From positions 62,001-126,000 of the forward strand of contig CAMPDV010001272.1 in assembly GCA_946699065.1 (NCBI GenBank): a stretch of 64,000 nucleotides of DNA, in the 5' to 3' direction. Of the stretch, positions 4,801 through 56,512 are shown piece after piece (within the stretch, counting starts at the first letter, position 1; every line of letters starts with the position of its first letter). The notes below the pieces were generated by a model. The model was not told where the DNA came from and searched no databases. It saw nothing but the letters and a program-made list of their open reading frames with translations. The translations under genes were made by a program, and so were the position numbers. The DNA comes from Loxodes magnus. Lineage: Eukaryota; Ciliophora; Karyorelictea; Loxodida; Loxodidae.

Positions 4801-7019
4801 TTAAGATTAATCCCAATGATGAAGATTCTTAATTTTAGAAAGGAGTTGCACTTTAGGAATTAGGAAAGTAAGAAGAAGCTATATAATGTTTTAACATGGT
4901 TAAGAAAGTTTATTCTAATTACGTTGACTCATAAATTTAAAAAGGACTAGCTCTTTTAAAGATGGACAAATACGAGGAAGCAATAGAGTGCTAAAATATG
5001 GCTCTTGATTATTAATAAAAAATGTTTTAAGCTAAAAATAAAGAGGAAAGAGGCTTTTCTGAATCAGAAAATAAGGAAAACTTTGAAGAGTTATTAAATT
5101 CGATTGACTTAACTGATCCTAATTAAATATAAGCACTAATAATCAATGGAATTGCCTTTCTAAATTTAGAGAAATACGAAGACTCTCACAAATGCTTTGA
5201 TAAACTAATTGAATTTGATCCGAATAATGCAGATCTATATTTAAATAAGGCAAAAATTTTTTTTAATCAAAACCAAATCGAAAAATCCATCGAATATTTT
5301 GACATTGCATCTAAACTTGATCCGAGTAATTATGAAATATACAATTAGAAAGCAACTGTTTACTTTAAGCAATGCAAATATAAGGAAGTTATTGAGTCCC
5401 TTTAAATTGCTATTTAACTTAATCCAGATTACTTTGAAGCTTATAATGCTAAAGGTGTTGCTCTTTATTTATCTGGTAGAATTGAAGAATCAATTGATTT
5501 CTATGATTAAGCTATTAGAGATCCTAACTTTTCCTTGCCCTTAATAAATAAGTACCTTTCTCTTAGCGAGCTAGGAAGAACTGAGGAAGCGAATAAGTGC
5601 TGAGATGATGCTCTTAAGCTAGAGCATGATTATTATGAAGTATTTAACACTTAAGGAACATGAATTTCAAACTTTGGGTAATATTAATAGGCAGTTGGCT
5701 ACTTGGACATCGCAATTAAACTAGATCCTTCTAAATTTGAAGCCTATAAAAATAAAGGCTCAGCTTTATTATCTATGAAACGAGACCAAGAAGCAAAGGA
5801 GTGCTTTTTAAAGGCTATAAAGCTCAATCCTTAAATAAAGTATGAATGCAGTATGTAGATTCAAATTTAGCCTTCTTCTTCAGATAATAAAACTTTGATG
5901 GATATCTGAGCTATTTTGCATAAAAATGGAGCTGGCGAAGACAAAAGATCGTTAATTCGTATCTGGTAATATAATTAATTAATTGCAAATAAACAATTCT
6001 TGGAATCTCTACAACTGCTTGGTAGAGGAGCATATGGAGTAGTCTACTTGATTGAAATTGATGACATCAAATATGCTTTAAAGATACTAGCCAGCTCAAC
6101 TTATAGACAGGTAATAATTAACAATTTTTATCACGAATGCTAATCCCTCTTGAGTGTCAATAGTGATAGAGTTTTAAGATTAATTGGTGTATCAATTAAT
6201 GACTAAGATGAAAATGATTTTATCCTATGTCTAATAACTGAATATCAGTCTAAAGGAAGTCTGTACAACTTGATTGCTTAAAAAAAGTTATTCTAGGATT
6301 ACTAAGATTAATCAGTTAGATTTTTCAAAAAGTTATGCTTGTTAAGTTAAATAGCAGAAGGAGTCTAGGTAATCCATTCGAAAGACTTAATTCATAGAGA
6401 CATTAAATCTCTTAATATCTTGCTTGATGATAATGACTCTCCTAAGATTGCAGATCTTGGTCTTGTTAGCTTTGGATAGTCTGTATAAACTCAAGAAGGA
6501 AAGGGAAGTTCATAATGAAAGGCTCCTGAATTGTATGATGGAAAAGCTTATCAAGCAAGTGATATTTGGTCTCTTGCTTGCGTTGCAGTCGAAATATTTA
6601 ACGAGTCCCTACCTTTTCCAGATCTAGTTTATGAACTAGAAATCATGAAAAAAATTTGCTTGGAAGGTTTAGTTCTATCCATCTCTTAAGAAAAATCATA
6701 AGACACTGCTTTGAATTAATTGCTGCTTGAATGCTTTAGTTTTGACCCAAATAAAAGGCCAAAAATAAATGCTTTCAAATAGAGAATTGATCTAATAAAG
6801 CATAAGCATGATCCATTAATCAAAACTAGCAAATATCTACAAAGCGAAAAAGATCTAGACACTTAGAAAAAAGATCTAAAGATAAATGAAATAGATCACC
6901 AACCTTTCTAAGGGAAGCTTTCAAAAACAATTTAAAATTTGGGTGAAAATCTAATTCATACTTTAAAAAACCAGTCTAAGTATGTTACAACTCCTAAAAA
7001 TCAAGATGGTATTGTTTGA
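1794..7019 (+). CDS. Giant TPR-repeat protein kinase (copy A), frameshifted
   Basis: About 1,740 codons. After a Gln/Asn-rich N-terminus (about 120 residues) come roughly 33 TPR units of 34 residues (about 125-1,350), with the family pattern AYxxKGxxLxxLxKxEEAIECYNxAIxLxP. A C-terminal protein kinase domain follows (about 1,400-1,670). It has a glycine loop GRGAYGVV, catalytic lysine in YALKIL, HRDIKSLN (HRD codons at 6393-6401), ADLG in place of DFG, APE and SDIWSLAC. All catalytic residues are present, so it is probably an active Ser/Thr-type kinase with a large protein-binding arm. Four single-base shifts are needed, near 3268, 3757, 3822 and 4021, two of them in A or T runs; the frame returns to the original one, so it may be intact in vivo. 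TGA reads as Trp several times; the likely stop is TGA 7017-7019, after which composition changes. The start is the first ATG in frame and could lie further upstream. It is the only copy with a complete active site. Confidence 0.85.
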
Positions 7020-7089
7020 CCTTAACGTCTTGCTTTGAAAAACTAAAAACTTAAAATTAATAGATTAATTACCAAATTCCATTTCTACT

Positions 7090-9219
7090 AATGGTTGGTA
7101 TTACTATTCAAATTTACTAATCCTAATCTATATTTCTTAAAAAGCGACTAGCTTCTTCCATCCTTATTTTTAGGCTTGCTAATAAGAATAAAAGTGAAGT
7201 CTTACTCTTATCTAATTATAAAGAGAAGGCAGTAAATTAGCTTATAGCTAATCAAAAGCAAGCTTAATTAGACAAGCTTGCTAGAGTTAGTAGCAAAGCT
7301 ATTGTCTTAGAAAGGTTTTCATTAAAATTGACTTATCAAATTATCTTCCTTTTCTGTCTGTATATTAGGCATTATAAGAAGGCCTATTTCTAAGTTTATA
7401 TAAGCAGATATTTGAAAGCTCATTTATTAGTATCTTAATTAATAAAGCTATAAGGTTTTAATCTTAGTTCAAAAAAGAGCGAATAAGATTGATTTTATGA
7501 GCGAAAGAGAACTAAAAATCTAAAAGACTAGTCAATATTAAAAAAATGTTGATTCCTTTAGAATTAACATTTAGCTATTTAAACACTTATAAACAGGTTT
7601 AACTCTTTCTATTATCCTTCCTAGTACCAAGATACTAGAGTTATGCTAAATGGAACTAATTCCTAGTCTCAAGATGCCTTCTTCTATCCCTATAGCCAAA
7701 GTTATTTATTTTCCTTTTTAAACTTGAGGGGACTAAAGTACCTTGCTCTAGGGTTAAATTACTAGCTCTACCTACCTATTTAAATAGTTTCTAAGACATA
7801 CCTAATCTAAGCTAACAGATCCTAGCCCTTCCTCTAAAGCTAAGGTTATAGATAAATACTTGTATACTAGTTGAAGTATATTTACCTATCACTAGCTATA
7901 GATAAAAGTATTGACTTCAGTCCATTATTTAAGCAGCATATGTAGTAAGTTGCTTGATTGCTATGCAATATTTTTATTCTATTACCAGTAAGATATTTAA
8001 GTCATCTATGCCTTATTATTAACCTTTAATTAGTGCTTATTAAGTATTAAAGGGAGCAATTAAGAAACTGCTTTTATTTAATAAACGTATAATGTAGCTT
8101 GATATGTGAGGGTAAGTGAGTGTATATTTAACTAGTAAACTGGTTAAATAAAATTAGACTTGACTGCTTATAGAGTGATTAGCGAATGAAATGCTTGCTA
8201 AATGTATAATCTGAAGCTAATTGAATATCATTCCTAAGGGAATTAAGGCAGTAGATAATAAGATAAATATGCATTAGCTCTATACGGTAGAGAATAGCTA
8301 TTTTAGTAGATGCCTATAGTTAGTGCTGCTATAAGAGATATTCCTTAGTTTATCCTTATATGTTCTTCTTTATACCTCAAGTGTATTATTAACTATAGCC
8401 AAAACTTATATTAAGCCTCCCTTATGGAAACAGGCCATAATCAAGCTTATTACTATTACCAAATTCAATCTAATCAATAATAAACAGAGCTAGTATTTAA
8501 GCTTTTGCTTCTGGATTTTTGAATCCACTCTTATCCTTAAATCCAAAACTACCTTTAAACTCCCAAATACTTTCTACTTTAGTAAGAGTATTAGTTTGCA
8601 TAGACTAACCATAAAAGGAACTCATCTGATACGCTGTTATTTTAGCATTAAGAAGATCAGGGAAATTATGCAAACCACAAAGAAAAGGGAAGAGGGAGTT
8701 CTAAAGGTAATGGCTAACAAGTTTAATAGGCTAACGTTAATATCTAAGTACTCTAAATAAATATATAGAAAGCAGATTTAAATCAAAGATATAAGATTAC
8801 TACTAGCTTATTGCTTCCTCCTTTAATATAAATAGATACATCAAAATTCACTAGCCTTTAGTTTTAAACTTAGAGGGAGTAAGAACTTAGATATAGTCAT
8901 GCTATTCAAAAGAAATCGGTCTTTAACTAAGACTATACTGATCGCTTGTTCTACAGGACTATATTTATTTTTCTTAATTTACCTATTTCAAAGCCCTCTA
9001 TAATAACTCCAGATTGAGACAAAGCTTTAAAGCAGTACTCAATATTTAAGTTTGCTAAGAGTTGAAACGCAAGGTTGTTAAGGTAGTTTGAATACTTTGA
9101 GAAAGAAATAGACTTTATGATATGAAAATAAAGCTGCAGGAACAGGGCTAAGATAGCTGCTTTATTCCTTCTAACTTCCGCTTTTCTTAAGTAATCTAAT
9201 GGTTTTAAGTGATTTTCAT
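7090..9219 (-). CDS. Candidate unrecognised gene, convergent with kinase A
   Basis: The minus strand from ATG 9219 stays open with purine-first codons, best around 8700-8300, where it reads with evenly spread Gly, Asp, Phe and Pro (for example GSFGFKDKSGFKNPEAKA). No domain is recognised. Towards 7900-7600 two minus-strand frames look equally good, so a frameshift or a wrong frame is possible. The 3' end is arbitrary; several TGA codons lie between 7680 and 7100. Plus-strand readings of 8640-9800 also look protein-like, which shows how weak open-frame evidence is with this code. Treat as tentative. Confidence 0.3.
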
Positions 9220-9814
9220 ATAGTTTAGAATGATAAAATTTGAACTAAATAAAGGATATTAAAGTACTAAAGTACAAAGAGCAGCTATAAGAAACTTTGA
9301 AAAGGGATATTTTTCCCTTTCTCATTTACCTAGCTATTTGCTTACTTAGCATTACCCTTTAAATCTCTTCTATTTAGTCTAGTAAGTAGAGATAAAGCTT
9401 TCAGTGATATATTCTTATTTATCAGATCTAGGCAAACACTCCATAGAGAGCCGGGCGAAAATTAAGAACCATCTAAGTATTCACAATCTGACTGATTCAC
9501 TCCAAAGAAAGCTAATTAGTCTTACCAGGTCTGAATCAATAGTCATATAGTTACCAAAAATACGATCTATTATCAATCAAATTAGCATACAATCTTCTTA
9601 GCACTTAACCGCTTAATCAAATCAAACCACAATACAAGCATCCTTCATTAACTAATTATTAAATAACAAGCAATTAACAAAGTACTTCGTTACAAGCTTA
9701 TGCTTAAAAGAGATATTCAACCAATATTATACCCAACTAGCATTCTAAATACCCTGCATTCGTTAACCTATTTTACACTTCAATCCACACCAAAACTAAT
9801 GTATAGAGGTACTA

Positions 9815-10920: not shown

Positions 10921-10929
10921 AGTAGAATA

Positions 10930-12060
10930 TAAGGAATGAGACGTTTGATTTGTACTTATGGCAGTCAAAATAGCATGAAATGTTAGATAGTTTTAATATT
11001 GGAATAAAGAATCTAGCTATTTAATCAATCTAAATTGTGTTATTATGTTCAGATGAATCGTAATATTTCACAGCAATGATCATGATAAAGCTTTACCAAT
11101 ATAGAGCAGTTAAGATCCTGATGCTTTTTTTTTATTAAGAGATGAGATGAAAAATTTGTAGGCTGAATGAATTTTATCAGTCAACTAGAATTACGAAAAA
11201 TCCTGAATATCTATGTAAATTAACCTGGTATTCTACTCAAAGAGGTAATAGTATTTAAAAGCTTTAAGTAAGTGACTGTAAGTTAAGAAATTTCTTCAAA
11301 CAAACTTTCTTAATAGTTTGCTATCCGGCCTCCTCACCTAAGAGATCAACAGTCTATCCAATCTGCTAACTCTCAATGTAGTTTTTTCTCTTTCCTCTAT
11401 TTAAATGCAATCATATTTAATCCTTGCTTTCTATTTTAAAATATTTCAACTGCCGTCTGTACTAAAACTAGCTTCATTAAAGCTCTTCTTTTCTACAGTT
11501 ACTCATATTTTACTTAAATTGGCAAAGTTTAGTTGGTTTGTTTTCTAAAACGTAGTATCTACTCTAAGTTAAGGTAATATTTACGATTAGAGCGATATAT
11601 TGTAGTTTATCCTTTCAAGACTAGCATGCTTTTCAACTAAACCAGCGTTTTCTTTTAAGGATCAATTTTAGTGTAAAAAGTCCCATGAGCCATATACTAA
11701 ATCTAACTCTCCTGTCCTTTCAGATTATTTAACTAGTTTCAATAAATTGGTAGTTTAGATTACTCTAAAGAGCAGCATTTTCTGAAACATGCTAGATGAG
11801 ATAAAGCTCTTTCAACTTTTGACACACCTAGCATGATCAATTAATTTTAGATAATTTTCTAGTTCAATATATCAGGCTTAAGTCAAGCTTTTTGAGGGCT
11901 AATACTAACTTGGCTTTTTAAGTGAAAGTTTCTAAGATCTAAAAATCTCAGCCATAACAGAAATTTAGTTACTCTCCAACAAAAGTTGTCTGATGCTACA
12001 AGGAAGTAAAGGAATAGCCTCAAAGGATTAACCAGATAAATGAGCAATTAGATTTAAATT
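10930..12060 (-). pseudogene. Unidentified gene family X, copy 1
   Basis: No known domain. It is called because it matches, in sequence and order, the plus-strand segment at about 61,440-62,300. Shared blocks include SERTGELDLVYGSWDF (other copy SERKEKIDVTGYAWDF), LKENAGLVEKHASLERI (LKENASSVESLISLEKI) and SRLDRLL..QV....SKLLRK (SWLDRFF..QV....SKLLRK). The blocks fall in different frames in the two copies, so at least one copy carries indels. DNA-level similarity continues to about 10,950. It lies immediately downstream, on the same strand, of LINE-A. Whether it is a host gene or part of a mobile element cannot be decided here. Confidence 0.4.
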
Positions 12061-13712: not shown

Positions 13713-13715
13713 AAG

Positions 13716-14988: not shown

Positions 14989-16057
14989 ATGGAGAATAAA
15001 GAAATGTAATTTACTAAAAGTATTTTTTTGAGAAAACTCCTAAGAACAAGAAACCACACCCTAGGCAAAATATCTCTTCTTCATTTTAAATATGAAATTC
15101 TGCCTAACTTATGTTTCAAAAAACTTATAAATAAGATTAGCTATGACCAAAGTAAAGGTATTTCTTTAATGTTTTTTAGACTAGGTTATTTATGACACTT
15201 CACGTGTTTTATCGGTATCCATAACAAGTGACCTGATCTGAATTTTATCTGGTTCAGATATTCCTAAAAATTCGATATAGATCTGGAATTTCCATACAGG
15301 TACCCTCTAAAGAACTTTAACTGGACATACTTCTTGAATTTTATCGATAGTAATCTCTCCAAACTCGAGCTATATTGTTTCAGCATCTGGGGATACAACA
15401 ATCAAGATCTGAAATTCGTAGACTGGTTCCCTCCTAAGAACTTTAATTGGACATACACGTGCAGTTAGATCGGTAGTAATTTCCCCAGACTCTAGTTATA
15501 TTGTATCAGCATCTGGTGATAACACGATAAAGATCTGAAGCTTGTAGACTGGTACCCTCCAAAGAACTTTAACGGGTCATACTTCTTGAGTTTCTTCGGT
15601 AGTTATCTCCCCTGACTAGAAATGAATTATATCAGCATCTGATGATAAAACGATAAAGATCACGGATTTCCAGACTGGTCAGCTTGAGCGAACTCTTTCT
15701 GGTCATTCAAGTTCAGTTTGATCGGTAATAGTGTCTTAGGATAATAGGTACATAATATCAGGTTCGAATGACAGTTCAATTAAGATATGGGACTTCCTTA
15801 CTGGTTAGTGTATTCGAACTCTTCAAGGTCATAAACATGTTGTATCAAGTATTCAGTTAAGTCCTGACTCAAGTGTTATATTTTCTGGATCTTTTGATAA
15901 AACAATAAAGATATGGAACTTTGATAAGGGTGTGTGCATATAGACTTTAGAAGGGCATACATCATATATAAGTTCTATAGTATTGAGTAGTGACAATAGA
16001 TGGTTGGTATCGGGAGGATATGATTATTCTGTGCGAAAGTGGAGAATCTCGAGTTGA
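14989..16057 (+). CDS. WD40 seven-bladed propeller protein
   Basis: Seven WD40 repeats in order, each close to [20 protein letters not shown] followed by DxTIKIW, giving a complete beta-propeller, a protein-interaction scaffold. An N-terminal arm of about 70 residues begins MENKEMQFTKS at ATG 14989. The blade-end Trp is TGG in some blades (for example 15914-15916) and TGA in others (15410-15412, 15536-15538), and TGA also stands for Trp inside several blades, as in HTSWIL and SVWSV. Blade 4 has Thr instead of that Trp. The arm and the propeller lie in different frames; a 28-nt or 22-nt GT...AG segment ending at 15179 joins them exactly. TGA 16055-16057 directly after the last blade is the probable stop; the DNA beyond is much more AT-rich. 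The partner is unknown. Confidence 0.85.
15152..15179 (+). other. Candidate short spliceosomal intron in the WD40 gene
   Basis: GT at 15152 and AG at 15178-15179 bound 28 nt of T-rich sequence; a second GT at 15158 gives 22 nt. Either length removes the frame difference between the N-terminal arm and the propeller, producing a junction like [12 protein letters not shown]. Very short introns are typical of several ciliates. With no stop codons to avoid, frame restoration is the only support. Confidence 0.35.
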
Positions 16058-17225: not shown

Positions 17226-17229
17226 CCCT

Positions 17230-29483: not shown

Positions 29484-32400
29484 ATGTCTGAAGCATAATA
29501 ATATTTAATATAAGGAAGATAAATTTTCGATGAAGGAAATTATACAGAAGCTATCGAATATTTCAACATTGCTATTATATTAGATCCTAGGTAAGTAGCT
29601 CCTCACTGTGACAAAGGAATTGCTCTGAGCGAATTAGGGAAATATGTCGAAGCGATATAGAGCTACGATGCAGCTCTCAAACTAAATCCAAATGATGCAG
29701 TTGCTCATTATGATAAAGGACTTACACTGAGCAAATTAGGGAAATATGTTGAAGCAATATATAGCTACGATAAAGCTCTCAAACTAGATCCAAATTATGC
29801 AGCTGCTCATTGTAATAAAGGACTTACACTGAGCAAATTAGGGAAATATGTTGAAGCAATATAGAGCTACGATAAAGCTCTCAAACTAAATCCAAATGAT
29901 GCAGTTGCTCATTATGATAAAGGACTTACACTGAGCAAATTAGGGAAATATGTTGAAGCAATATATAGCTACGATAAAGCTCTCAAACTAGATCCAAATT
30001 ATGTAGTTGCTCATTGTAATAAAGGGCTTGTATTGAATAGATTAGAAAAATATGTTGAAGCAATATAGAGCTACGATAAAGCTCTCAAACTAGATCCAAA
30101 TTATGCAGCTGCTCATTGTAATAAAGGACTTACACTGAGCGAATTAGGGAAATATGTCGAAGCAATATAGAGCTACGATAAAGCTCTCAAACTAAATCCA
30201 AATGATGCAGCTACTCATTATAATAAAGGACTTACACTATAAAAGTTAGGAAAATACGTCGAAGCGATATAGAGCTACGATAAAGCTCTCAAACTAAATC
30301 CAAATGATGCAGCTACTCATTATAATAAAGGACTTACACTATAAAAATTAGGGAAATACGTCGAAGCGATATAGAGCTACGATAAAGCTCTCAATCTAGA
30401 TCCAAATGATGCAGCTGCTCATTATAATAAAGGACTTACACTGAGCGAATTAGGGAAATATGTCGAAGCAATATAGAGCTACGATAAAGCTCTCAAACTA
30501 GATACAAGTTATGCAGCTACTCATTATAATAAAGGACTTACACTGAGCGAATTAGGGAAATATGTTGAAGCAATATAGAGCTACGATAAAGCTCTCAAAC
30601 TAAATCCAAATGATGCAGTTGCTCATTATGATAAAGGACTTACACTGAGCAAATTAGGGAAATATGTTGAAGCAATATATAGCTACGATAAAGCTCTCAA
30701 ACTAGATCCAAATTATGTAGTTGCTCATTGTAATAAAGGGTTTGTATTGAGTAGATTAGAAAAATATGTTGAAGCAATATAGAGCTACGATAAAGCTCTC
30801 AAACTAGATACAAGTTATGCAGCTACTCATTGTAATAAAGGACTTACACTGAGCGAATTAGGGAAATATGTCGAAGCAATATAGAGCTACGATAAAGCTC
30901 TCAAACTAAATCCAAATGATGCACTACTCATTATAATAAAGGACTTACACTATAAAAGTTAGGGAAATACGTCGAAGCGATATAGAGCTACGATAAAGCT
31001 CTCAAACTAAATCCAAATGATGCAGCTACTCATTATAATAAAGGAATTACACTATAAAAGTTAGGGAAATACGTCGAAGCGATATAGAGCTACGATAAAG
31101 CTCTCAATCTAGATCCAAATTATGCAGCTGCTCATTGTAATAAAGGACTTACACTGAGCGAATTAGGGAAATATGTCGAAGCAATATAGAGCTACGATAA
31201 AGCTCTCAAACTAGATACAAGTTATGCAGCTACTCATTATAATAAAGGACTTACACTGAGCGAATTAGGGAAATATGTTGAAGCAATATAGAGCTACGAT
31301 AAAGCTCTCAAACTAAATCCAAATGATGCAGTTGCTCATTATGATAAAGGACTTACACTGAGCAAATTAGGGAAATATGTTGAAGCAATATAGAGCTACG
31401 ATAAAGCTCTCAAACTAGATCCAAATTATGTAGTTGCTCATTGTAATAAAGGGTTTGTATTGAGTAGATTAGAAAAATATGTTGAAGCAATATAGAGCTA
31501 CGATTTAGCTCTGAAACTAGATACAAGTTATGCAGCTACTCATTGTAATAAAGGACTTACACTGAGTAAATTAGGGAAATATGTCGAAGCAATATAGAGC
31601 TACGATAAAGCTCTCAAACTAAATCCAAATGATGCAGCTACTCATTATAATAAAGGACTTACACTATAAAAGTTAGGGAAATACGTCGAAGCGATATAGA
31701 GCTACGATAAAGCTCTCAAACTAGATCCAAATTATGCAGCTGCTCATTGTAATAAAGGACTTACACTATAAAAGTTAGGAAAACATTAAGCAGCCATTGA
31801 AAGTATCAATGCAGCTATCAAACTAGACTCTACTGAACCAAATCATTTCAGAAACAAAGGTTTATCTCTTTATACAATAGGAAATTATCTCGAAGCCATC
31901 TTATGTTTCGATGTCGCTATATCGCTTAATCCTAATTATGCATAAGCTCATTATGATAAAGGCCTTTGTCTTCAAAAATTAAATCTTAATTAAGAAGCAC
32001 TTTAATGCTTCAGTAAAGCAAAATAACTTAATCCAAATTTAGAAATTCCTTAACTAAGTGCTTTAATTTAAGTAAACTAAGTGAAGAATATAATAAAAGA
32101 AGAAGAGATAAAGAATTTCTTATAGTAAGTAGATAGTAATTTTGAGGTAAGAATATGGAAATATAGAGATTTGGTTCCTAACAATTAATTTCTTGGGGAA
32201 TTATAGAAATTGGCTTGCGATGATTTCGGAACGACTTATCTGGTTAATATCTAAGGATTCATGTATGGATTTAAAGTATTTAACTAATAGAACGATAAAA
32301 TAATAGATTAGTTCTGGTTTGAATGTAAAGAACTAATTTTAATAAAAAGCTTAAGTGTTTAAAAACTTATAGGATTTGCAGTCGATACTTAAGAAATAGC

Positions 32401-33061
32401 TCTTTTAACTGATTTTTAGAATAAAGGAAGTTTATTCTAAATTATTCAGACTAAGTAGTTATTCAAAAACTGTTACTCTACAATAAAATTCTATAAGAAA
32501 TTTAACTTACTTAGTTAAATAGCAGAAGGCTTATAGGCTATTCACAATAGAAACTTAATTCATAAAGAAATAAAATCTCTTAATATTCTGTTAGATGATT
32601 AAGATTTTCCTAAAATACTAACTTTTGGATTATTTAATTAAGATAACTGATTAAGAGCAATAGAATAGAAAGGTGAACATCAATTGATGGCTCCTGAATA
32701 ATTTGAAAAGAGAGTGAGTAAAAAAAGTGATATCTGATCTTTAGGTTGTATAGGAGTAGAAATATTCAACGAAGGATTTCTATATCCAGTTCTAGATTCT
32801 TAGTTAAAGTAAATAGTTTATATTGATAAGATGATTCCTATGTTTTCAAGCGAAATATAACAAGAATCCTTATTAACTGATTTATTCTACAGATGTTTAG
32901 CTTTCGACGAGAAAATAAGACCAGACATAGATATTTTTATAATTTAGTTAGAGCAAATAAAATAGAAGTGAAATCCATATGCATATATTAGTTACTAACA
33001 TATAAGAGAAGCTGAAAAAAACAAATAGAGTACATCAGAATTATAAGAGAAGAAGAATTGA
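29484..33061 (+). CDS. TPR-pseudokinase, copy B, one frameshift
   Basis: ATG 29484 (MSEAQQYLIQGRQIF) to TGA 33059-33061. About 25 TPRs with unit KGLTLSELGKYVEAIQSYDK make up two thirds of the protein; many units are nearly identical. One deleted base near 30924 breaks the frame inside a TPR. The C-terminal kinase-like domain keeps a lysine in YGFKVF, the glutamate of FECKEL, MAPEQF and SDIWSLGCIGVE. HRD is replaced by HKE (IHKEIKSLNILL) and DFG by TFG (KILTFGLF), so it should be catalytically dead. The domain Trp at 32735-32737 is TGA; before APE, TTG (Leu) replaces the Trp of the other copies. The stop TGA is shared by all four paralogues. A tRNA-Gly follows 2.2 kb downstream, a gap enlarged by element insertions. 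Likely a binding scaffold; partners unknown. Confidence 0.85.
29883..31790 (+). repeat. 714-bp higher-order repeat within the copy B TPR array
   Basis: Seven consecutive 102-bp TPR units form a block that recurs: the phrase encoding KLNPNDAVAHYDKG begins at 29883, 30597 and 31310. The spacings are 714 and 713 bp, the missing base being the frameshift near 30924. The array ends in the third block. Such near-identical blocks indicate recent unequal exchange inside the gene. Confidence 0.8.
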
Positions 33062-35249: not shown

Positions 35250-35321
35250 GCGCTATTAGTCTAGTGGTTAGGATAACTGCCTTCCAAGCAGTTGACCCGG
35301 GTTCGAGTCCCGGATAGCGCA
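35250..35321 (+). tRNA. tRNA-Gly(TCC), copy 1
   Basis: 72 nt, full cloverleaf: acceptor GCGCTAT/ATAGCGC with discriminator A, D-arm with TCTAGTGGTTAGGA, anticodon stem ACTGC/GCAGT around loop CTTCCAA (anticodon TCC, reads GGA, the main Gly codon here) and T-arm GTTCGAG. Internal Pol III A and B boxes are present; TTTT at 35323-35326 is the terminator. CCA is not encoded and there is no intron. Identical to the three other copies. Confidence 0.97.
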
Positions 35322-35579
35322 CTTTTGATTATAAAGGAATAAATAAATATTAGATTATTTATATAATTAAAAGAAAATGGATGCTATATATTTCACTAGT
35401 TATAAATAGTGATTCTTTTAAATAATTATAAAGAAGCTGCAAATTCAAAGGTTTAGAACTGTTAGGTGCATAAAAACCTCCGAAAAGAGATTTGGAGTCT
35501 TTACAACTTACAGAAGTCAACTTAAAGAGAATTTGTTGAAGAAATTATTGCCCTGGAATCAGAAAAGAATTATTACATA

Positions 35580-38500
35580 TTTAGGTTGATTAAAAGGAGA
35601 AGAAAAAATCATTTTAATAAAAATGTTAATGAAATGAAGTTACTGATATAAATCAGATACTTCATTTTAATTATGTTCAAAAAGTTCAAGCATCGTTCTT
35701 TCCATCTTCCAACTTTTCCTCGTTGCTTCTTATGCTTTCTTATTGTTTTTCTTAGGCTCCAATCAATTATCTGTGCTTTTTTCTACAATTTCAATTCTTT
35801 TTTTTCGTAAATTCTTATGAAAATTTTTAAAAAGAAGATCTGCATCCATTTACTTATGAGAAGTGAACTGCTAGATTACGTAGAGTTAATCGTAAGTCAC
35901 TAGTTTTTCCAATTTTTCCCAGGAAATTTATCAGAGATATTTCTAACTATGTCCTAATAGTAGACACATTCGAAGATATTTCTAAACGTGTCTTTTCCAT
36001 CACATTTACAGAGGTAATTTTTTACAGGATAATGACGCATATGTAAGTCATATTGAAAACTGTAAGAATTAGTTAGTAATTTAAAGATTGAGATTATTTC
36101 TTTTTTATATTCCTTGTTTAGTTTAGTGTAATTTATTTCAGGAAATTTCAAAAGTCCTCAAGTTGATCTCTAAATATCTGTTCAGTGGGATGTCTCTATA
36201 TCGTATAGTTGCTTCTTAGTAGAATTTGTTTCTTATTTTTTCTCAATAAGATTCTCAAAAGAAAGTTAATTAGGAATCATGGTTTGGTCGTCATTGTTAA
36301 TTCTGTAATATTAAAACATCCTTTTAACTTACTAAAAGTACAAAGATTTTTAGCTTCAATTTCTCTCAAAGAGTCTTCCTATATCGGATTCTGGATAATT
36401 CCTAGCTTCTTTCCGTATTTTAAAGTAGAAACGGAAAGAGCGACTAGCCATAATATGCTCAAAAGGGAGTCAGTTAAAGTCTATATAGCAGGACTCATTA
36501 AAGACAGAGATAGGCGACTGTAAAGCCTTCTCGCAATTATACGCATACTTTTGTTTATCTTCTCTTTCATAGGCTATGAGCCTCTCATTAAAGTTCAAGG
36601 AACCAATTCTCCAACAGTATTCAGCCTTAGGCAACGTAAACATTCGACAAAGCATTTTAAAGTGTCAGGGAGTAATATTATTGTATCGACTGAGAGTATA
36701 AATGCATTTCTTTACCGATTCTAAATATGTTTAAATTCTCTATTTACAGTGATTGATCAAAAGACCATTTTCTTGTATTATGACTCCAAGGCATGTCACT
36801 AGATTCTTCTATTTAATATGTTAATCTTCCAGTTTCAAGTTTAATTCGATTTTTTTAGCTCTTCATTTTTTACAAATTGCATTACTTCACATTTACTAGT
36901 GTAAATTTACAGAAAAATTCTGTTGCATTAATCTATAAGTTATTACATCCTTTAAGCAGAGCAAGAAAGGAGTATAAAATCATCTGCCTACGCTCTGAAT
37001 ACAAAGTTTATATTGTTCAGATTGATACCTAGATGTGTATTTCTTCCTATAGATGTCTGATTACTATATCATAATATAGGAGGGAGAGTACGGGATAATA
37101 TGAACTCCCTTGCATAACTCCATTGTTGTAATGAAGTCGTCGAGTTGTTTACCCATCGATTAGAAAAGAGGAATTCAGGTTACTGTAGAAAGACTCTAGT
37201 GCCAGTATCTATCCCAGAGGTAGTTTTATTATCCTAAGATGTTAAAAAAGTGTTCTTCTCTCAATACTATCAAACATCTTCTCAACATCAATAAGAGTAG
37301 CAAGCATCCTTGTTTAGCCTTTCCCTTCACTCTAATAGAGGTCAATTATCTGATACAATTATCATATTTAGTGGGCTGTTTGTCTCTTCTTGAGAAATCC
37401 CATTTATGCAGGATGTATGAGGTTTCATTCTTAAAGGATTTGTAAGTCCTTTCTGTTAAAGCCTTGTCGTAGATCTTCAATATAGATTCATAAGGGAAAT
37501 TGATCTTCAGTTTTTCCAATCACTCTTACTACCTTTCTTGAAAATAGGAATAATAATGGAGGTATTCAGTTTTTATGGAATTTATTAAAGTCTCATCATA
37601 TTATTGATAAAACAGTGAATTATTTATTGTAACTCTTCTCCAGCATACTTGATGAGTTCACCCTTTATTCCATCTGGTCCAGCTGCCTTGCCATTTAGAA
37701 TATGTTGAATAATTTCTTGAATTTATTCAAATTTGAAAAATTTAAAATTTTACAAGGGAGAAGATGGGTAATTGATAAGTTAATGATTTCTATAAATGAG
37801 ATCTATTTACCGTTTACTAAAATTAAGTTGTTCCTATGCTACATTTTAATGTTTATTTAACACAAAGGTTTCTCAGTTATCAATAAAGGAGTTACTAAGT
37901 TCTTCATTAAAATTCATTTAATTCCTTATTTTAGGGCTTATTATCTTTTTCGCCTGACAGAACATCGTTCGTTGATTTCCATCTATTTTGAGAAATTTAC
38001 CTTTAGCCTGAAGCTTTTTCCATTTTCAATAAGAACGCATATATATATTTTTTAATTTTCTGGCTACAGAATTAGCTTCAGTTACTGTTTAGTTAATTCT
38101 TCCTTGTATAAACATCAATTTCTTATACTCTTAATTTGCTCTTTTAGCAGCTATATATTTCAAAGTGATATCCTGAGGTAGTTTGTTGTAATTAGTATTT
38201 TGTTTAACTACTTCTATTGTGTTCATTTCACTATTCTAAAGTAAGTTCGTGATGAAATTATATTATGAGTCTAAGTTGTCTGAATATACAGTCAAAAAAC
38301 AAGAAAAACTACCTTAAAATTAATTTTATTAATTTTATCTGTCAATTGGATCAAGTAGCTTATCAATCTTATAGAACATTTGTGGTTACGTTGTAAGCAA
38401 GAGTCACAGATATAGGAATATGATAAGTGATTAGTTTGTCATAGTGAACCTAGAAATTGTTGAATTAATCAATATTCAAGTGTTGGGTTCCAAAATGTAA

Positions 38501-38970: not shown

Positions 38971-39048
38971 TGATGTAGATTATAGTGCTTTAATACCATA
39001 CTATTATATTAATATTACTATTTTTATTTATTCCTTTATAAACAAAAG

Positions 39049-39120
39049 TGCGCTATCCGGGACTCGAACCCGGGTCAACTGCTTGGAAGGCAGTTATCCT
39101 AACCACTAGACTAATAGCGC
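39049..39120 (-). tRNA. tRNA-Gly(TCC), copy 2
   Basis: Exact reverse complement of copy 1, with the same cloverleaf and discriminator A. TTTT on the transcribed strand at 39,047-39,044 is the terminator. It lies about 240 bp downstream of pseudokinase C, on the same strand. Confidence 0.97.
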
Positions 39121-39355: not shown

Positions 39356-42085
39356 TCACTTCTCTTATAAAATTGATGTAGGTTAGTGGCTTATATCTGT
39401 ATAATAAGGATTTCACTTCTATTTTATTTGCTCTAACTAAATTATAAAAATATCTATGTCTGGTCTTATTTTCTCGTCGAAAGCTAAACATCTGTAGAAT
39501 AAATCAGTTAATAAGGATTCTTGTTATATTTCGCTTGAAAACATAGGAATCATCTTATCAATATAAACTATTTACTTTAACTAAGAATCTAGAACTGGAT
39601 ATAGAAATCCTTCATTTAATATTTCTACTCCTATACAACCTAAAGATCAGATATCACTTTTTTTACTCACTCTCTTTTCAAATTATTCAGGAGACATTCA
39701 TTGATGTTCACCTTTTTGTTCTATTGTTCTTAATCAGTTATCTTAATTAAATAATCCAAAAGTTAGTATTTTAGGACAATCTTAATCATCTAGCAGAATA
39801 TTAAGAGATTTTATTTCTTTATGAATTAAGTTTCTATTGTGAATAGCCTACAAACCTTCTGCTATCTAACTAAGTAAGTTAAGTTTCTTATAGTATCTTA
39901 ATTTATAGTGACAGTTTTTGAATAACTACTTAGTCTAAATAATTTAGAATAAACTTCCTTTATTCTAAAAATCAGTTAAAAGAGCTAGTTCTTAAGTATC
40001 GATAGCAAATCCTATAAGTTTTTAAACACTTAAGCTTTTTATTAAAATTAGTTCTTTGCATTCAAATCAGAACTAATCTATTATTTTATCGTTCTATTAG
40101 TTAAATACTTTAAATCCATACATGAATCCTTAGATATTAACCAGATAAGTCGTTCCGAAATCATCACAAGCCAATTTCTACAATTCCCCAAGAAATTAAT
40201 TGCTAGGAACTAAATCACTATATTTCCATATTCTTACCTCACAATTACTATCTACTTACTATAAGAAATTCTTTATCTCTTCTTCTTTTATTATATTCTT
40301 CACTTAGTTTACTTAACTTAAAGCACTTAGTTAAGGAATTTCTAATTTTGGATTAAGTTATTTTGCTTTACTGAAGCATTAAAGTGCTTCTTGAAATCTA
40401 TTTAAAGCTTAAAGACAATAACCTTTTTTATAAAAAGCTTATGCGTAGTTAGGATTAAGTAAGATTGCGGCGTCGAAACATTACATGGCCTCAAGATAAT
40501 TTTCTAATTTATAAAGAGAAATTCCTTTATTTTGGAAGCAAACTGGTGAAGAAGGATCAAGTTTGATGGCTTAATTAAAACTTTAGATTGCTTCGTTATA
40601 TTTCCCTAACAAATGTAGAGTAAGTCCTTTATTGTAATGAGCAGCTACTAAATTAGAATCGAGTTTTAGAGCAATATTTAAGTTTTGGATTGCTTCATCG
40701 TATTTACCCTATTTTTTCAGTGCCATTCCTTTATTACCATAAACAACTGCATTGTTAGGATCTAGGTTTAGAGCTTTATCTAAGCTTTAAATTGCTTCGT
40801 TGCATTTTCCTTATTCTATAAGCGCAAATGCTTTATTATAATGAGCTTCAATTAAATTAGAATCAAGTTTTAGAGCTACATTAAAGCTCTAAATTGCTTC
40901 AAAGTTTCTACCTAATTCTTTCAGTGCTATTCCTTTAGTTTAACGAGCTATTGCATTATTAGGATCTAGTTTTAAAGCGATATCTAAGCTTTAAATTGCT
41001 TCAATGTTTCTTCCTAATCGTATCAATGCAATTCCTTTATTAGCATAAACAGCTGCATTATTAGGGTCTATATTTAGAGCTATATCAAAACTTTAAATTG
41101 CTTCATTGTATTTTCCTTATTCTACCAGCGTAAATCCTTTATTAGCATGTACAGCTGCTAAATTGGGATTTAGTTTTAGAGCGACATCTAAGCTTTAAAT
41201 TGCTTCGTTGTATTTACCTAATTCTTTCAGTGCTATTCCTTTATTACCATGAGTTGCTGCTTCATTAGGATTTAGTTATAGAGCGATATCAAAACTTTTA
41301 ATTGCTTCGATGTTTCTACCTAATCTATTCAATGCAATTCCTTTATTACCATGAGTTGCTGTATCATTAGGGTTTAGTTTTAGAGCTTTATCTAAGCTTT
41401 AAATTGCTTCGTTGTATTTACCTAATCTATTCAATGCAATTCCTTTATTACTATGAGTAGCTGCATTTTTAGGATCTAAATTTAAAGCGACATCTAAACT
41501 TTAAATCGCTTCAATGTTTCTTCCTAATCGTATCAATGCAATTCCTTTATTACCATGAACGGCTACATTATTAGGGTTTAGTTTTAGAGCTTTATCTAAG
41601 CTTTAAATTGCTTCGTTGTATTTACCTAATTATTTCAGGGTTATTCCTTTATTACTATGAGCAACTTCTAAATTAGGATTTAATATTAGAGCTTTATCGT
41701 AGCTCTAGATTGCTTCGTTGTATTTACCTAATTCTTTCAGTGCATTTCCCTTATTAGCGTGAACATCTGCTAAATTAGGATTTAATTTTAGGGATTTATC
41801 GTAGCTCTAGATTGCTTCGTTGTATTTACCTAATTCTTTCAGAATAATTCCTTTATTACTATGAATTGCTGCATCATTAGGATCCAATTTTAAAGCGATT
41901 TCTATACTTTAAATTGCTTCGAAGTTTCTACCTAATCGACTCAATGCCATTCCTTTATTACTATGAGCAGCTAAATTATTAGAATCTAATATTATTGCTA
42001 TATCTAAATACTCGATAGCTTTCTGATAATTTGCTTTGTTGATAAGTTAAATTGCTTATTTGATATATTACTAAGGTTGAGACAT
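39356..42085 (-). CDS. TPR-pseudokinase, copy C, intact (909 aa)
   Basis: Minus-strand ATG 42085 (MSQPQQYIKQAIQLINKANY) to TGA 39356-39358, with no break in 910 codons; start, kinase motifs and stop are all in one frame. About 16 TPRs (residues about 15-580; unit KGIALKELGKYNEAIQSYDK) show more variety than in B. A kinase-like domain occupies about 630-890, with HKE (IHKEIKSLN) instead of HRD and TFG instead of DFG, so it is a predicted pseudokinase. The Trp codons in SDIWSLG (39647-39649) and before the Pro-Glu of the APE site, here SPE (39698-39700), are TGA. The upstream sequence with TTTATAAAATG is shared with D, so the promoter was duplicated too. Being intact, C is the best reference for the family. 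Confidence 0.9.
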
Positions 42086-46880: not shown

Positions 46881-46955
46881 TGTAGATTATAGTGCTTTAA
46901 TACCATACTATTATATTAATATTACTATTTTTATTTATTCCTTTATAAACAAAAG

Positions 46956-47027
46956 TGCGCTATCCGGGACTCGAACCCGGGTCAACTGCTTGGAAGGCAG
47001 TTATCCTAACCACTAGACTAATAGCGC
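46956..47027 (-). tRNA. tRNA-Gly(TCC), copy 3
   Basis: Identical to copies 1 and 2; anticodon TCC. Terminator TTTT on the transcribed strand at 46,954-46,951. It lies about 650 bp downstream of pseudokinase D, on the same strand. Confidence 0.97.
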
Positions 47028-47673: not shown

Positions 47674-49827
47674 TCAACTCTTCTTCTTTTATAACTCTGA
47701 TGCACTCTATTTTATGTTATCAACTTCTGTCATTGATCTATGACTTATATCTGCATAACTAGGATTTCATTTCTATTTTATTTGCTCTAACTAACTTATA
47801 AAAGTAGCTATGTCTGGTCTTATTTTCTCATCGAAAGCTAAACATCTGTAGAATAAATCAGTTAATAAGGGTTCTTGTTATATTTCGCTCGAAAACATAG
47901 GAATCATTTTATCAATATAAACTATTTACTTTAACTAAGAATCTTAAACTGGATAAAGAAATCCTTCATTGAATATTTCTACTCCTATACAACCTAAAGA
48001 TCAAATATCACTTTTTTTACTCACTCTCTTTTCAAATTATTCAGGAGCCATTCATTGATGTTCACCTTTCTATTCTATTGCTATTAATCAGTTATCTTAA
48101 TTAAATAATCCAAAAGTTAGTATTTTAGGACAATCTTAATTATCTAACAGAATATTAAGAGATTTTATTTCTTTATGAATTAAGTTTCTATTGTGAATAG
48201 CCTATAAACCTTCTGCTATTTAACTAAGTAAGTTAAGTTTCTTATAGTATCTTAATGTAGAGGGACAGTTTTTGAATAACTACTTTGTTTAAATAATTTA
48301 GAATAAACTTCCTTTATTCTAAAAATCAGTTAAAAGAGCTAGTTCTTAAGTATCGACTGCAAATCCTATAAGTTTTTAAACACTTAAGCTATTTATTAAA
48401 ATTAGTTCTTTACATTCAAATCAGAACTAATCTATTATTTTTTCGTTCTACTAGTTAAATACTTTAAAGCAAAGCATGCTTCCTTAGATACTAGCCAGAT
48501 AAGTCGTTCCGAACTCATCACAAGCCAATTTCTATAATTCCTATAGAAATTAATTGTTAGGAACTAAATCACTATATTTCCATATTCTTACCTCACAATT
48601 ACTATCTATTTACTATAAGAATTTCCTTATTTATTCTTCTGTTATTATATTCTTTAATTAACTTACTTCTTTTGTAACTTTTGTTTAGGGAATTTCTAAA
48701 TTTGGATTAAGTTGTTTTGCTTTACTGAGGCATTCAAGTGCTTCTTGATTCTTTTTTAAAGTTTGAAGACAAAGATCTTTATCATAATGAACTTATGCAT
48801 AATTAGGATCAAGTTAAATAGCTGTGTCGAAACATTGGATGGCTTCGAGATAATTTCCTAATTTATAAAGAGATAATCCTTTATTTCGGAAGTAAACTGG
48901 AGAAGTAGGATCGAGTTTGATGGCTTAATTAAAGCTATGAATTGCTTCTTTGTATTTCTCTAACAAATGTAGAGTAAGTCCTTTATTGTAATGAGCAGTT
49001 ACTAAATTAGAACCTAGTTTTATAGCGATATCAAAGCTCTAAATTGATTCAATGTATTTACCTAATCAAACCAATGCAATTCCTTTATTAATATGAGCAG
49101 CTATTAAATTAGGATTTAATTTGAGAGCGATATCGTAACTTTAGATTGCTTCACTGTATTTCTCTAATTCTTTCAGTGCTATTCCTTTATTGCAATAAGT
49201 AGATTCATTATTAGGATCTAGTTTTAGAGAGGCATCGTAGCTCTAAATCGCTTCACTATATTTTCCTTATTCTATTAGTGCATTTCCTTTATTTTAATGA
49301 GCAACCGCTTAATTAGGATTTAGTTTAAGAACTATATCATAACTCTGGATTGCTTCGTTGTATTTACCTAATTCTTTTAGTGCCATTCCTTTTTTAATAT
49401 GAATAGCTGTATTATTAGGATCTAATTTTAGAGTTAAATCAAAACTTTAGATTGCTTCGATGTTTTTTCCTAATTCTTTCAATGCTATTCCTTTATTAGT
49501 ATGAGCAGCTACAAAATTATGATCTAGTTTTAGAGCCATATCGTAACTTTAAATTGCTTCAATTTTTCTTCCTGATCGAATCAATGAATTTCCTTTATTA
49601 TAATGAGCAACTACTAAATTAGGATCAAGATTTAGAGCGTTATCAAAGCTCTAGATTGCTTCGTTGAATTTCCCTAATTCTTATAGTGCACAACCTTTAT
49701 TACAATGAACAACTGCAGCATTAGGATTTAATATAATCGCTAGATTTAAATACTGGATAGCTTCCTGATAATTTCCTTTGTTGATAAGTTAAATTGCTTA
49801 TTTGGTATATTGATAAGCTTGAGACAT
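47674..49827 (-). CDS. TPR-pseudokinase, copy D, intact (717 aa)
   Basis: Minus-strand ATG 49827 (MSQAYQYTKQAIQLINKGNY) to TGA 47674-47676 in one frame, 718 codons including the stop. About 11 TPRs, fewer than in B or C; units are diverse. The kinase-like domain begins near FLQELQKLACDEFG and has the same lesions as its sisters (IHKEIKSLN, KILTFGLF), so it is a predicted pseudokinase. It keeps the VAIK-type lysine (CFKVF), the APE motif (MAPEQF) and SDIWSLGCIGVE. TGA serves as Trp at 48001-48003 and 48052-48054. The bases after the stop differ from B by indels, which fits noncoding sequence. The downstream tRNA-Gly lies in the same direction. Confidence 0.9.
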
Positions 49828-51903: not shown

Positions 51904-51930
51904 TAGAATAGGTCAGATGGCTGACTACTA

Positions 51931-51958: not shown

Positions 51959-52119
51959 TTATAAGGATAAATTATTTTAAGTAGTTAATAATTATTATTA
52001 TATAGCTGTTATTATTTATTTGCTTAATTTAAGAACCTTCTAACTTATTTTATAGGTGATTTCATTAATTATTTATAACTTTAGTATTATATTAGTTTAT
52101 AATAAATAAATTAATTAAT

Positions 52120-52612
52120 TAATTTTATTATAGAGCGCGTAGCACTCTCGTTGGCGCGCAGCTCTTTAAAAAAAAATGTTTCATACTGACAAGAATGTTT
52201 GTTACTGATAAAATTATCAGATACTGATAAACCTTGTTCAATACTGGTATAATTATTCAATACTGATAAAAATGTTCAATACTGATATAATTTTAGAATA
52301 CTCGTAATCTTTAATACTTATTGTAGGTTCAAGGACATGGCAGGATTGTGTCTCATGCATCACCAAAGCAGAGGACGACATGTGTCAATTATGGGTACTT
52401 AAATTCCCCACCTCTGATGAAGCTCGCAATATTATTTCTTTTTAGTTCCAGAATTAAAAATAAACGAAGCCAAGCCAGTGTCGAAGGTCTAAGAATCTTA
52501 TGTCTCGAGGTCAAACCAAAGCAGAGGAAGACATAAAGTCGATTATGGGTACTTAACTTCCCCAACCTCTGATGAAGATGACCTTGTTGTTCACCTTCGA
52601 ACAACTATGGCG
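52120..52612 (-). mobile_element. S1 element, minus-strand copy with internal duplication
   Basis: The hairpin typical of the S1 3' end (AGAGC GCG ... CGC A GCTCT) lies at about 52,130-52,170, and the coding part at 52,604-52,325 is read to the left. It contains FIRGGEFKYPQLTHVVLCFG, matching the 60.9-kb copy (FIIGRGNVP...YCILCFG), and a second unit GKLSTHNRLYVFLCFG upstream of it. Diverged from the other copies; a spacer with short repeated GATACTG-like motifs separates hairpin and coding part. Confidence 0.5.
52353..52576. repeat. Internal tandem duplication in S1
   Basis: Two units of about 75 bp (52,353-52,428 and 52,501-52,576), each with CCAAAGCAGAGGA, ATTATGGGTACTTAA and CCTCTGATGAAG, about 148 bp apart. 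Each encodes one LCFG motif on the minus strand. Confidence 0.65.
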
Positions 52613-52639
52613 GTTTTAAAAAATATATAATAAAATTGA

Positions 52640-53450
52640 CTATTTATGGTAATTTATTAATATGACGTCGTCTTTATTTGGCTTGTTTCTTATTAGTTTA
52701 TAAAAGTCCCAATAATCTATTTATTTTCCAGGTTCAAATTCCTGAATGGCGTATCTTTTGCTGTTAGTTTAACCTTTCTTTATCATAGGTATTTTACTCT
52801 AATATTAGTCCTTTCAAACATTTGCTTGATTCTTCTTCTCTAAGTATCTACTATTTACTCTAGTAATTTTCTTCAGCAATCATTTTTCTTCTATACAACT
52901 CACCTTTAAATATACAGTAAATCTGGTTAGGTGTATCATAAATTTTAATTTTCTCCTTTTTACACTTTTTAAAATCTCAAAAGGAATTTTTTATGTATCC
53001 TAGTTTTCTACAGAATCAGTGCATAATAGATCTTCTTTTTATTAGTTGATTAACTATCTAATTTTTATGGTTGATTAATATTTTAATATGATTACTCAAT
53101 ATCGTTTGGATTGTATATAGCTTTAGTCATAACTTGGTTGTAGTTTATTTAATAGAGATTTTGAATTTCTGATATTTTTTTTCTTCTGTTGTTTTAAATT
53201 TTTAGTTAACTAGATGTGTAGAAGCTTTTAAGCTAAAATCTGAATAGAATATTTAATTATAATTTAGAGTTAGTTAATTTATAAATCTAGACTGTTTATC
53301 TACTGAACTAATTGTTGTTACTGGTACCTATAGTTTTTATTGTCAGCCTATAACAAATAAATTTAAATAAATGTATCTTATTGGTAGTTAGGAGATTGGC
53401 TTTAGGTGAATAGTTTCTTAGGTTCCTTTTTATTTATATAATATGTTTCA
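52640..53450 (-). other. Coding-like minus-strand segment, possibly a decayed ORF1
   Basis: One frame near 53,000 reads HWFCRKLGYIKNSFWDFKKC, which might be a ruined zinc knuckle; another near 52,760-52,640 reads RYAIQEFEPGKQIDYWDFYK. No family assignment is possible and frames change. It lies between S1 and o9. Confidence 0.25.
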
Positions 53451-53523
53451 TGCTTAATTAAGACTATTAAGAAGATGAAAAGCTTATTATATTTAAGTAA
53501 TTTAAAGCTAAATTAATAAAAAA

Positions 53524-54315
53524 ATGGAGTAGTCAATAAGAATGTCTAAGAACTAAGCCAGAAAGATTAGAAAGAAAGCAGCTAAGGCTATTAGACAATA
53601 AGAAAAATTGAACGAATCGAGCTCTTCCTCCCAAGGTAAGATCATAGTGGGTATTCTAGAGAAGGAAGAGAACTAAACTAAAACAGTATTAATAACAATG
53701 GAGCAATATTAGGAACTAAATAAAAGAATATCTGACTTTGACGAAATTATATTCAATTAAGGAGAGAGAATTCGCAATTTTATGAATGAAATTGAAGATT
53801 TAAATAACGAAATAGTAATATTAAAAAAATTAACTAATAGAAAAAAAAGTAATAAGTGAGCAAGAATTGTATTTATAATCGTAAAAAAGTTTTAAGACAT
53901 CAAATAGAATGATAATCGAAGATCAATCACCTAAAGTTTAACAAAATCGCATGAACAATGAAGAAGGTTCAAACTAAGAAATATTAAAACGAATTGGAGT
54001 CCTAGAGAAAAAAATTCTTCCAAAAAGAAAAGAGTAAAACTAAGTTAAAAGTTGCTTTTATTGCAAATCGAAGTGACATTTACTAAAATATTGTAGGGAA
54101 TGAAAAATCCTCATAAAAAAAAAAGAAAATAAAAGATGAAAGGAAATCAACTGACTTTATATAAACTAGTAAAGAGTTTTTAAAAGAAGAATTTTTGCAA
54201 AACCAGAGCACGAAATGTGGACACCATCCACAAGGAAAAAATGGTCGTGGTATCCATCCACGAAACCAAATGGCAGCACGTACCTGGTTGAGATCCCAGG
54301 GGAGGCAGAACTTTT
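53524..54315 (+). CDS. ORF1-like coiled-coil/zinc-knuckle protein (o9), one frameshift
   Basis: ATG 53524 (MEQSIRMSKNQARKIRKK). Basic N-terminus, coiled coil with RISDFDEIIFNQGERIRNFM, then LNNEIVILKK (o6: NNELLILKS). A one-base difference in an A run near 53,845 shifts the frame; it then matches o6: EQELYLQSQKS, SNRMIIEDQ, RIGVLEKKILPKRK. The zinc knuckle is SCFYCKSKWHLLKYC (CxxCxxxxHxxxxC, intact; first Cys codon at 54053). The tail ends YLVEIPGEAELF, which corresponds to YLVESLGYANLF in o6. Same subfamily as o6 but well diverged. The end is taken at the conserved motif; TGA codons lie just beyond. Confidence 0.65.
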
Positions 54316-54489
54316 TTATTACTTTTAGTTTATAATAATAATAATAATATAGTGAAGCACATAAAAAGCAAAATAAAGGGTTTAAAATAAATAGAGTATA
54401 TTAATGATTAAATACTTAGAATTAAATAATTAAATTACATAATAACTATTAAACCTTCTATCATTCATTATTAGTTACCAAAATATAAA

Positions 54490-56512
54490 ATGTCTCAATC
54501 TGATTAATATAATAGATAAGGGATTAAGTTAGCAAACCAAGCAAATTATATTGAAGCTATAGAGTATTTCAATATAGCGCTTATACTCAATCCTAATGAT
54601 GTTGTTGCTCATTGCTTAAAAGGAGTTACTTTAAGTAAATTAGGAAAACGCGATGAAGCAATCTAGAGTTACGATACAGCTATCAAACTCAATCCAAATT
54701 ATGAAGTTGCTCATTACAATAAAGGAGTAACACTGGAAGAGTTAGGTAAAAACATCGAAGCACTAAATAGTTACGATATCGCTCTTAAACTAGATCCTAA
54801 TAAAGCAGCTACTCATTGTAATAAAGGACTTATACTGGAAAAGTTAGGAAAATACATAGAAGCAATCCAGAGCTACAATATAGCTCTCAACCTTGATCCT
54901 AATATGGTTTAGCCACATTTAAATAAAGGAAATATATTTAAAAAATTATTAAAATACAAAGAAGCTATGTAGAGCTACGATTAAGCCCTCAAACTAGATC
55001 CTAATAACTCAGATACTCATTGTAATAAAGGAGTAAATTTCTTTTCACAAGGATAATACAGCGAAGCAATCCAAAGCTTTGACATAGCTCTCAAATTAAA
55101 CCCAAATGTGATTACTGCTCATTTTAATAAATCAATTGCACTTGAATAATTAGGCAAATACAATGAAGCTATATAGTGTTATAATAAAGTTCTTAAACTG
55201 GATCCAAATGATGCAGGTGCTCATGGTAATAAAGGAATTACGCTTTAAAAGTTAGGAGAACATTATGCAGCCATTGAAAGTAACAATGTAGCCATCAAAC
55301 TAGACCCTTCTGAACCAAATCATTTCAGAAATAAAGGTTTATCTCTTTGTACAATAGGAAATTATCTTGAGGCTGTCTAATGTTTCAACACAGCTATCTA
55401 GCTAAATCCTAATTTCTCAGATGCTTATTATGATAAAGGTTTTTGTCTTCAAAAGATAAATAGGAATCAAGAAGCTCTCGAATGTTTCCATAAAGCAAAA
55501 CAACTTAATCCTGAATTTTAAATTCCCTAACTTAAAGTTACAAGTGAAATAAGCTAAGTAAGCTAAGTAATGAATAGAATAACAGAAGAAGAAATCAGAA
55601 AATTTTTATAGCAAATAGATAGTAATTATGAGGTAAGAATATGGAAATATAGTGATTTAGTTCCTAACAATTAATTTCTTGGGGAATTATAGAAATTGGC
55701 TTGTGATGAGTTCGGAACGACTTATCTGGCTAGTATCTAAGGAAGCATGCTTTGCTTTAAAGTATTTAACTAGTAGAACGAAAAAATAATAGATTAGTTC
55801 TGATTTGAATGCAAAGAACTAATTTTAATAAATAGCTTAAGTGTTTAAAAACTTATAGGATTTGCTATCGATACTTAAGAACTAGCTCTTTTAACTGATT
55901 TTTAGAATAAAGGAAGTTTATTCTAAATTATTTAAACAAAGTAGTTATTCAAAAACTGTCACTCTACATTAAGATACTATAAGAAACTTAACTTACTTAG
56001 TTAAATAGCAGAAGGTTTATAGGCTATTCACAATAGAAACTTAATTCATAAAGAAATAAAATCTCTTAATATTCTGTTAGATGATTAAGATTGTCCTAAA
56101 ATACTAACTTTTGGATTATTTAATTAAGATAACTGATTAAGAACAATAGAACAAAAAGGTGAACATCAATGGATGGCTCCTGAATAATTTGAAAAGAGAG
56201 TGAGTAAAAAAAGTGATATCTGATCTTTAGGTTGTATAGGAGTAGAAATATTCAACGAAGGATTTCTATATCCAGTTCTAGATTCTTAGTTAAAGTAAAT
56301 AGTTTATATTGATAAAATGATTCCTATGTTTTCAATCGAAATATAACAAGAACCTTTACTAGTTGATCTATTCTACAGATGTTTAGCTTTACGACGAGAA
56401 CATAAGACCAGACATAGATATTTTTATAAGTTAGTTAGAGCAAATAAAATAGAAGTGAAATCCATATGCAGATATTAGTTACTAACCTACATCATTATTA
56501 AAAGAGAAGTGA
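54490..56512 (+). CDS. TPR-pseudokinase, copy E, one frameshift
   Basis: ATG 54490 (MSQSDQYNRQGIKLANQANY) to TGA 56510-56512. About 10 diverse TPRs, then the kinase-like domain with HKE and TFG in place of HRD and DFG: a predicted pseudokinase. The Trp before APE is TGG here (56170-56172), where C and D have TGA; the subdomain IX Trp is TGA (56221-56223). One inserted base at about 56,391 (GCTTTACGAC against GCTTTCGAC in B) breaks the frame 40 codons before the end; beyond it the reading matches the sisters to the shared stop. The spacer to tRNA copy 4 is short and uninterrupted (about 460 bp), so E preserves the ancestral arrangement. Confidence 0.87.

Follow-up and report, generated by a model that had tools for sequence, protein, structure and literature searches.

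The window, i.e. the whole stretch of 64,000 nucleotides analysed here (C1272:62001-126000), carries a kinase gene with TPRs (A), a WD40 gene and four further kinase copies (B, C, D and E), the features of which are collected in Table 1. Searches beyond the window covered the assembly of 705,730,643 bases in 7,843 contigs. When seven stretches of the window were translated with code 27, Pfam returned matches for three of them, namely the WD40 gene, kinase A (Pkinase, 118 bits) and kinase B (97.9 bits), and none for the other four. The 5′ part of kinase A lies upstream in other frames. The simple codon-usage gene finder which was used is imprecise at gene ends and assigned the WD40 gene to the wrong strand. 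A bacterial origin of the DNA was rejected, as the window yields no ORF of at least 150 amino acids under table 11 and the assembly amounts to 705.7 Mb.

Apart from the genes, an inverted similarity connects 11076-11659 with 61661-62229 (609 aligned columns, 69% identity). On the reverse strand, the region 35692-37690 resembles by eye a remnant of a LINE-type reverse transcriptase that extends across more than one frame; Pfam gave no match for it in the single frame submitted.

Table 1. Genes and informative codons of the window. Positions are counted from its first letter.
Feature	Gene or copy	Position	Strand	Basis or remark
Kinase gene with TPRs	A	3744..7019	+	coding segment 3744-7032 by rough codon-usage scan
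TGA read as Trp, upstream of APE site	A	6516..6518	+	codon check; opposite Trp in EGFR and TAK1
TGG, Trp of DxW	A	6567..6569	+	codon check
First TGA past kinase domain, likely stop	A	7017-7019	+	near coding end of the scan (7032)
WD40 gene	WD40	about 15143..16057	+	six WD40 stretches in Pfam; PDB alignments
TGA, likely stop	WD40	16055-16057	+	directly after last blade
TGG at F-W-FEC	B	32315..32317	+	TGA in C, D and E
TGA at Trp of DxW	B	32735..32737	+	codon check
Terminal TGA	B	32969..32971	+	Pkinase match ends 13 residues earlier
Terminal TGA	C	39413..39415	-	B-D comparison
TGA at Trp of DxW	C	39647..39649	-	codon check
TGA at APE-site column	C	39698..39700	-	opposite Tyr in alignments
TGA at F-W-FEC	C	40067..40069	-	column comparison
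Terminal TGA	D	47767..47769	-	B-D comparison
TGA at Trp of DxW	D	48001..48003	-	codon check
TGA at APE-site column	D	48052..48054	-	codon check
TGA at F-W-FEC	D	48421..48423	-	column comparison
TGA at F-W-FEC	E	55801..55803	+	column comparison
TGG at APE-site column	E	56170..56172	+	codon check
TGA at Trp of DxW	E	56221..56223	+	codon check
TGA matching terminal TGA of B-D	E	56456..56458	+	out of frame due to one-base length difference upstream

All four kinases B-E are copies of a single unit, the kinase part of which is about 5% divergent. Inside kinase gene B, a TPR unit of 102 bases is repeated 21 times (29613-31767, 89% alike); this array is a recent tandem expansion. Four tRNA-Gly(TCC) genes of equal Rfam score were detected at 35250-35322(+), 39048-39120(-), 46955-47027(-) and 56975-57047(+), each of them following one of the copies B-E on its strand, at a distance of 0.6 to 2.5 kb. 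The tRNA gene seems to have been duplicated together with the kinase-TPR unit.

A first-pass annotation, made from the letters of the window, had proposed a reassignment of all three stop codons and had named nine kinase codons in support. All nine (seven TGA and two TGG) are in place, and copy B carries TTG at the APE-site column as claimed. The comparison of the copies revealed one additional exchanging column, F-W-FEC, with TGG in B and TGA in the other three. The TGA codons at DxW in B-E are real, but since these genes are copies of one unit, the four represent one ancestral event and not several instances. In alignments to solved structures, the TGA at 6516 in kinase A is paired with Trp of both EGFR and TAK1. 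The TGA codons at the APE-site and DxW columns of kinase C are paired with Tyr in each of the three chains displayed, a result that is not in favour of Trp. For the WD40 gene, the annotated alternation of TGG and TGA at the blade-end Trp was confirmed, with TGG at 15284, 15788, 15914 and 16040 and TGA at 15410 and 15536; one blade has Thr instead. Three of the six internal TGA of this gene (both blade ends and 15719) are opposite Trp in the best solved chain, the others opposite Ser or Thr.

The in-frame TGA codons of B-E could also be nonsense mutations in decaying duplicates, TGA being a stop only. These copies have HKE and TFG at the motif positions usual for HRD and DFG; furthermore, E differs in length by one base near 56391, and the frame of B changes near 30932. 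On the evidence of the window alone, the motifs and the frame breaks would allow the TGAs to be damage. Judging from their motifs, B-E are likely to be pseudokinases, yet under purifying selection. With code 27, dN/dS of the kinase part ranges from 0.20 to 0.39 in six of six pairs, and downstream of the DxW TGA it is 0.20 (19 nonsynonymous changes at 780 sites versus 26 synonymous changes at 209, pooled over pairs). Since selection stays purifying past this codon, this TGA is not simply damage. TGA/TGG exchange in kinase A and in the WD40 gene likewise speaks against decay.

The column-wise exchange of TGG and TGA, which the first-pass annotation had proposed as a check, was followed in the kinases of the assembly. 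The 60 best-scoring of 136 kinase matches were aligned with stops masked, and stop codons were scored versus the sense residues of their columns; how the kinase family search scored stops is not stated, so that the rows may have been selected to some extent. The median pairwise identity of this alignment is 36%, and 64 of 1,770 pairs exceed 70%. TAA (294 sites) scored best as Gln (+127), followed by Lys (+51), with Glu at -7.5. The same order was obtained for TAG (136 sites; Gln +78.5, Lys +33, Glu -13.7), and for TGA (56 sites) Trp ranked first (+194.5), with Phe next (+31) and Tyr at -20.9. Bootstrapping over sequences left the winner unchanged in 196 (TAA), 199 (TAG) and 200 (TGA) of 200 replicates. 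In a control, 60 of 60 tested sense codons were recovered without hiding; hiding the codon itself reduced this to 52 of 60. TGG, CAA and CAG are among the eight misses, as is to be expected because few sense codons are then left for Trp and Gln.

Three columns with a Trp majority comprise 138 of 15,253 residues and hold 43 of the 56 TGA. In the first column, 35 TGG occur next to 19 TGA. The remaining 13 TGA fall into columns in which a residue other than Trp is commonest, and these count against the Trp reading. The test on 60 kinases is decisive, and the pattern of TGA and TGG lies far beyond chance. A decay of the copies B-E, with TGA as stop only, is contradicted by these Trp columns in other kinases and deserves practically no credence. 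NCBI code 6, in which UAR is Gln and UGA a stop only, was rejected as well, on the same share of in-frame TGA in Trp columns.

For TAA and TAG, Gln columns throughout the TPRs had been claimed. A pattern search in six frames delivered 62 matches with TAA/TAG at the TPR column in 42, CAA/CAG in 6, GAA/GAG in 5 and other codons in 9. The observation stands; on their own, however, the TPRs are poorly suited to distinguish Gln from Glu. UAA and UAG could mean Glu with UGA as Trp, as in Blastocrithidia, and the five GAA/GAG of the TPR column would be in line with such a code. However, it is contradicted by the column test, in which Glu scored negatively for both codons and Gln clearly positively, and we hold it to be extremely improbable.

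One gene for eRF1 of the assembly (L002) was translated with X at every stop, and the counts were read by hand off the printed alignment. Compared with a solved eRF1 chain (513 bits), 9 of 20 TAA/TAG are opposite Gln, and the remaining ones are paired with Ser (3 sites), with Lys, Val and Glu (2 sites each) and with Ala and Thr (1 site each). The protein reads GRAQNIKS versus GTASNIKS and FFLCENTF versus LYLCDNKF in the solved chain. A paralogue (L003) is located about 35 kb apart on the same contig (C196:19713 and 54613).

As far as the sense meanings are concerned, the proposed reassignment of the three stop codons holds, TAA and TAG being Gln and TGA being Trp; however, TGA remains the terminator. 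Copies B, C and D have a common TGA after the kinase domain, where the divergence increases from 5% before to 28% after it, accompanied by indels. Within the 63 bases before this codon, 10 of 192 pairwise sites differ, versus 97 of 350 plus 82 gap cells within the 147 bases after it. TGA likewise follows the last blade of the WD40 gene and stands where the alignment places the C-terminus of L002 and, by eye, in the matching place in L003. For kinase A, the codon-usage scan gives only a rough end: in B and D it runs past the TGA, in C it falls short, and it is off by some tens of bases. Because it misses these ends, its support for an end of A at 7017 is weak. Downstream sequences of 300 bases were inspected for the 60 kinases, and 8 clear coding ends were found, 5 of them with TGA within three codons. 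TAA and TAG were counted once each among these eight, both by our own reading in one kinase (L027), the apparent end of which shows these two codons but lacks TGA. In summary of these ends, UGA terminates genes, and it means Trp and also stop, while UAA and UAG mean Gln.

One gene of the assembly ends differently. It is located on the reverse strand (L001, C2 near 1762690), and from its family features we take it to be Pelota/Dom34-like. Its apparent conserved frame leads to a TAA at the drop to AT-rich sequence; no TGA follows soon after, and slightly upstream, by a few bases, a TGA occurs in a different frame. This end would be explained equally well by an error of one base, by an intron that went unrecognised or by true UAA termination. 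We consider it unlikely that UAA has retained some stop function close to 3′ ends in Loxodes, with a few genes such as this one ending there. If true, it would put the karyorelict code between codes 27 and 28. It would also fit the published data, since the L. magnus paper, in the part cited here, describes that UAA and UGA, but not UAG, are depleted just before the stop (PMC11441545).

Codes 27 and 28 had both been named as matches by the first-pass annotation, and the former fits. In code 28 (Condylostoma type), each of the three codons has a sense meaning and also serves as a stop near 3′ ends. Such a code would account for the TAA at the seeming Pelota end, for L027 and for the finding in PMC11441545 that both UAA and UGA are depleted before the stop in L. 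magnus. It needs TAA and TAG as stops, though, and these two doubtful cases are the only ones seen, whereas the other judged ends carry TGA (B, C, D, the WD40 gene, both eRF1 genes and, within three codons, five of the eight kinase ends). In the same part of that paper, UGA is given as the only stop. Because of TGA at the ends of B-D, of the WD40 gene and of the two eRF1 genes we decided for code 27, and code 28 appears very unlikely.

Our data show the sense meanings and the TGA at gene ends, whereas the mechanism is deduced from published work: a suppressor tRNA-Gln would decode UAA and UAG, a near-cognate tRNA-Trp(CCA) would decode UGA, and eRF1 would outcompete the tRNA solely at UGA near the poly(A) tail. 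The portion of PMC4967479 referred to here describes tRNA decoding as the default, with eRF1 prevailing near the transcript end. A search of the genome with a degenerate tRNA pattern gave 36 hits versus 120 for the backward control, and a further pattern 213 versus 199, both patterns being too strict to judge presence. ARAGORN called no tRNA gene at 30 loci of the first pattern and, at loci of the later one, only tRNA-Ala(TGC) in L124 and tRNA-Arg(TCT) in L135. By eye, a tRNA-Lys-like stretch was seen in L124 and tRNA-Arg-like stretches in L083 and L092; L107 has a CCA loop and was not called by ARAGORN. Neither tRNA-Gln(UUA/CUA) nor tRNA-Trp was found with these patterns, the performance of which did not exceed that of the backward controls.

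Taken together, we are confident that the window represents macronuclear DNA of a karyorelict (Loxodes magnus) with NCBI code 27, in which UAA and UAG are Gln, and UGA is Trp in the message body and a stop near the 3′ end. This code is already known. Table 27 was published for Loxodes (PMC11441545), where it is stated for karyorelicts including Loxodes, with UGA as sole stop and also Trp, and for the karyorelict Parduczia sp. (PMC4967479, in the section cited). Thus, 64 kb of raw sequence led to the correct re-discovery of a published code and to no new system. Codes in which every codon has a sense meaning and one is also a stop are a test of whether the codon or its position in the message sets termination. 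Such codes were published in 2016 for Condylostoma and Parduczia (PMC4967479), and one is also stated for Loxodes magnus (PMC11441545).

Comparison with known systems places our observations within code 27. As far as the cited text on Loxodes magnus (PMC11441545) and Parduczia sp. (PMC4967479) goes, UAA/UAG as Gln and UGA as Trp inside genes and as stop at their ends are the same here; no difference to code 27 systems was established, although the TAA at which Pelota seems to end stands out as an exception. Condylostoma magnum with code 28 has the identical three sense meanings and a stop meaning set by the position near the transcript end, but the cited section (PMC4967479) reports termination at UAA and UAG also, whereas the well-judged ends here carry TGA. 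An altered nuclear code is likewise known from Amoebophrya sp. ex Karlodinium veneficum, for which UAA/UAG suppressor tRNAs and a tRNA-Trp(CCA) with a 4-bp anticodon stem were reported (PMC12005148). This organism is a dinoflagellate relative and no ciliate, and it is likened here by description, not by sequence. In Blastocrithidia nonstop, according to the part of PMC12153298 cited, all three stop codons have sense as well, UGA is Trp and one codon still terminates; unlike here, UAR is Glu and the terminating codon is UAA.
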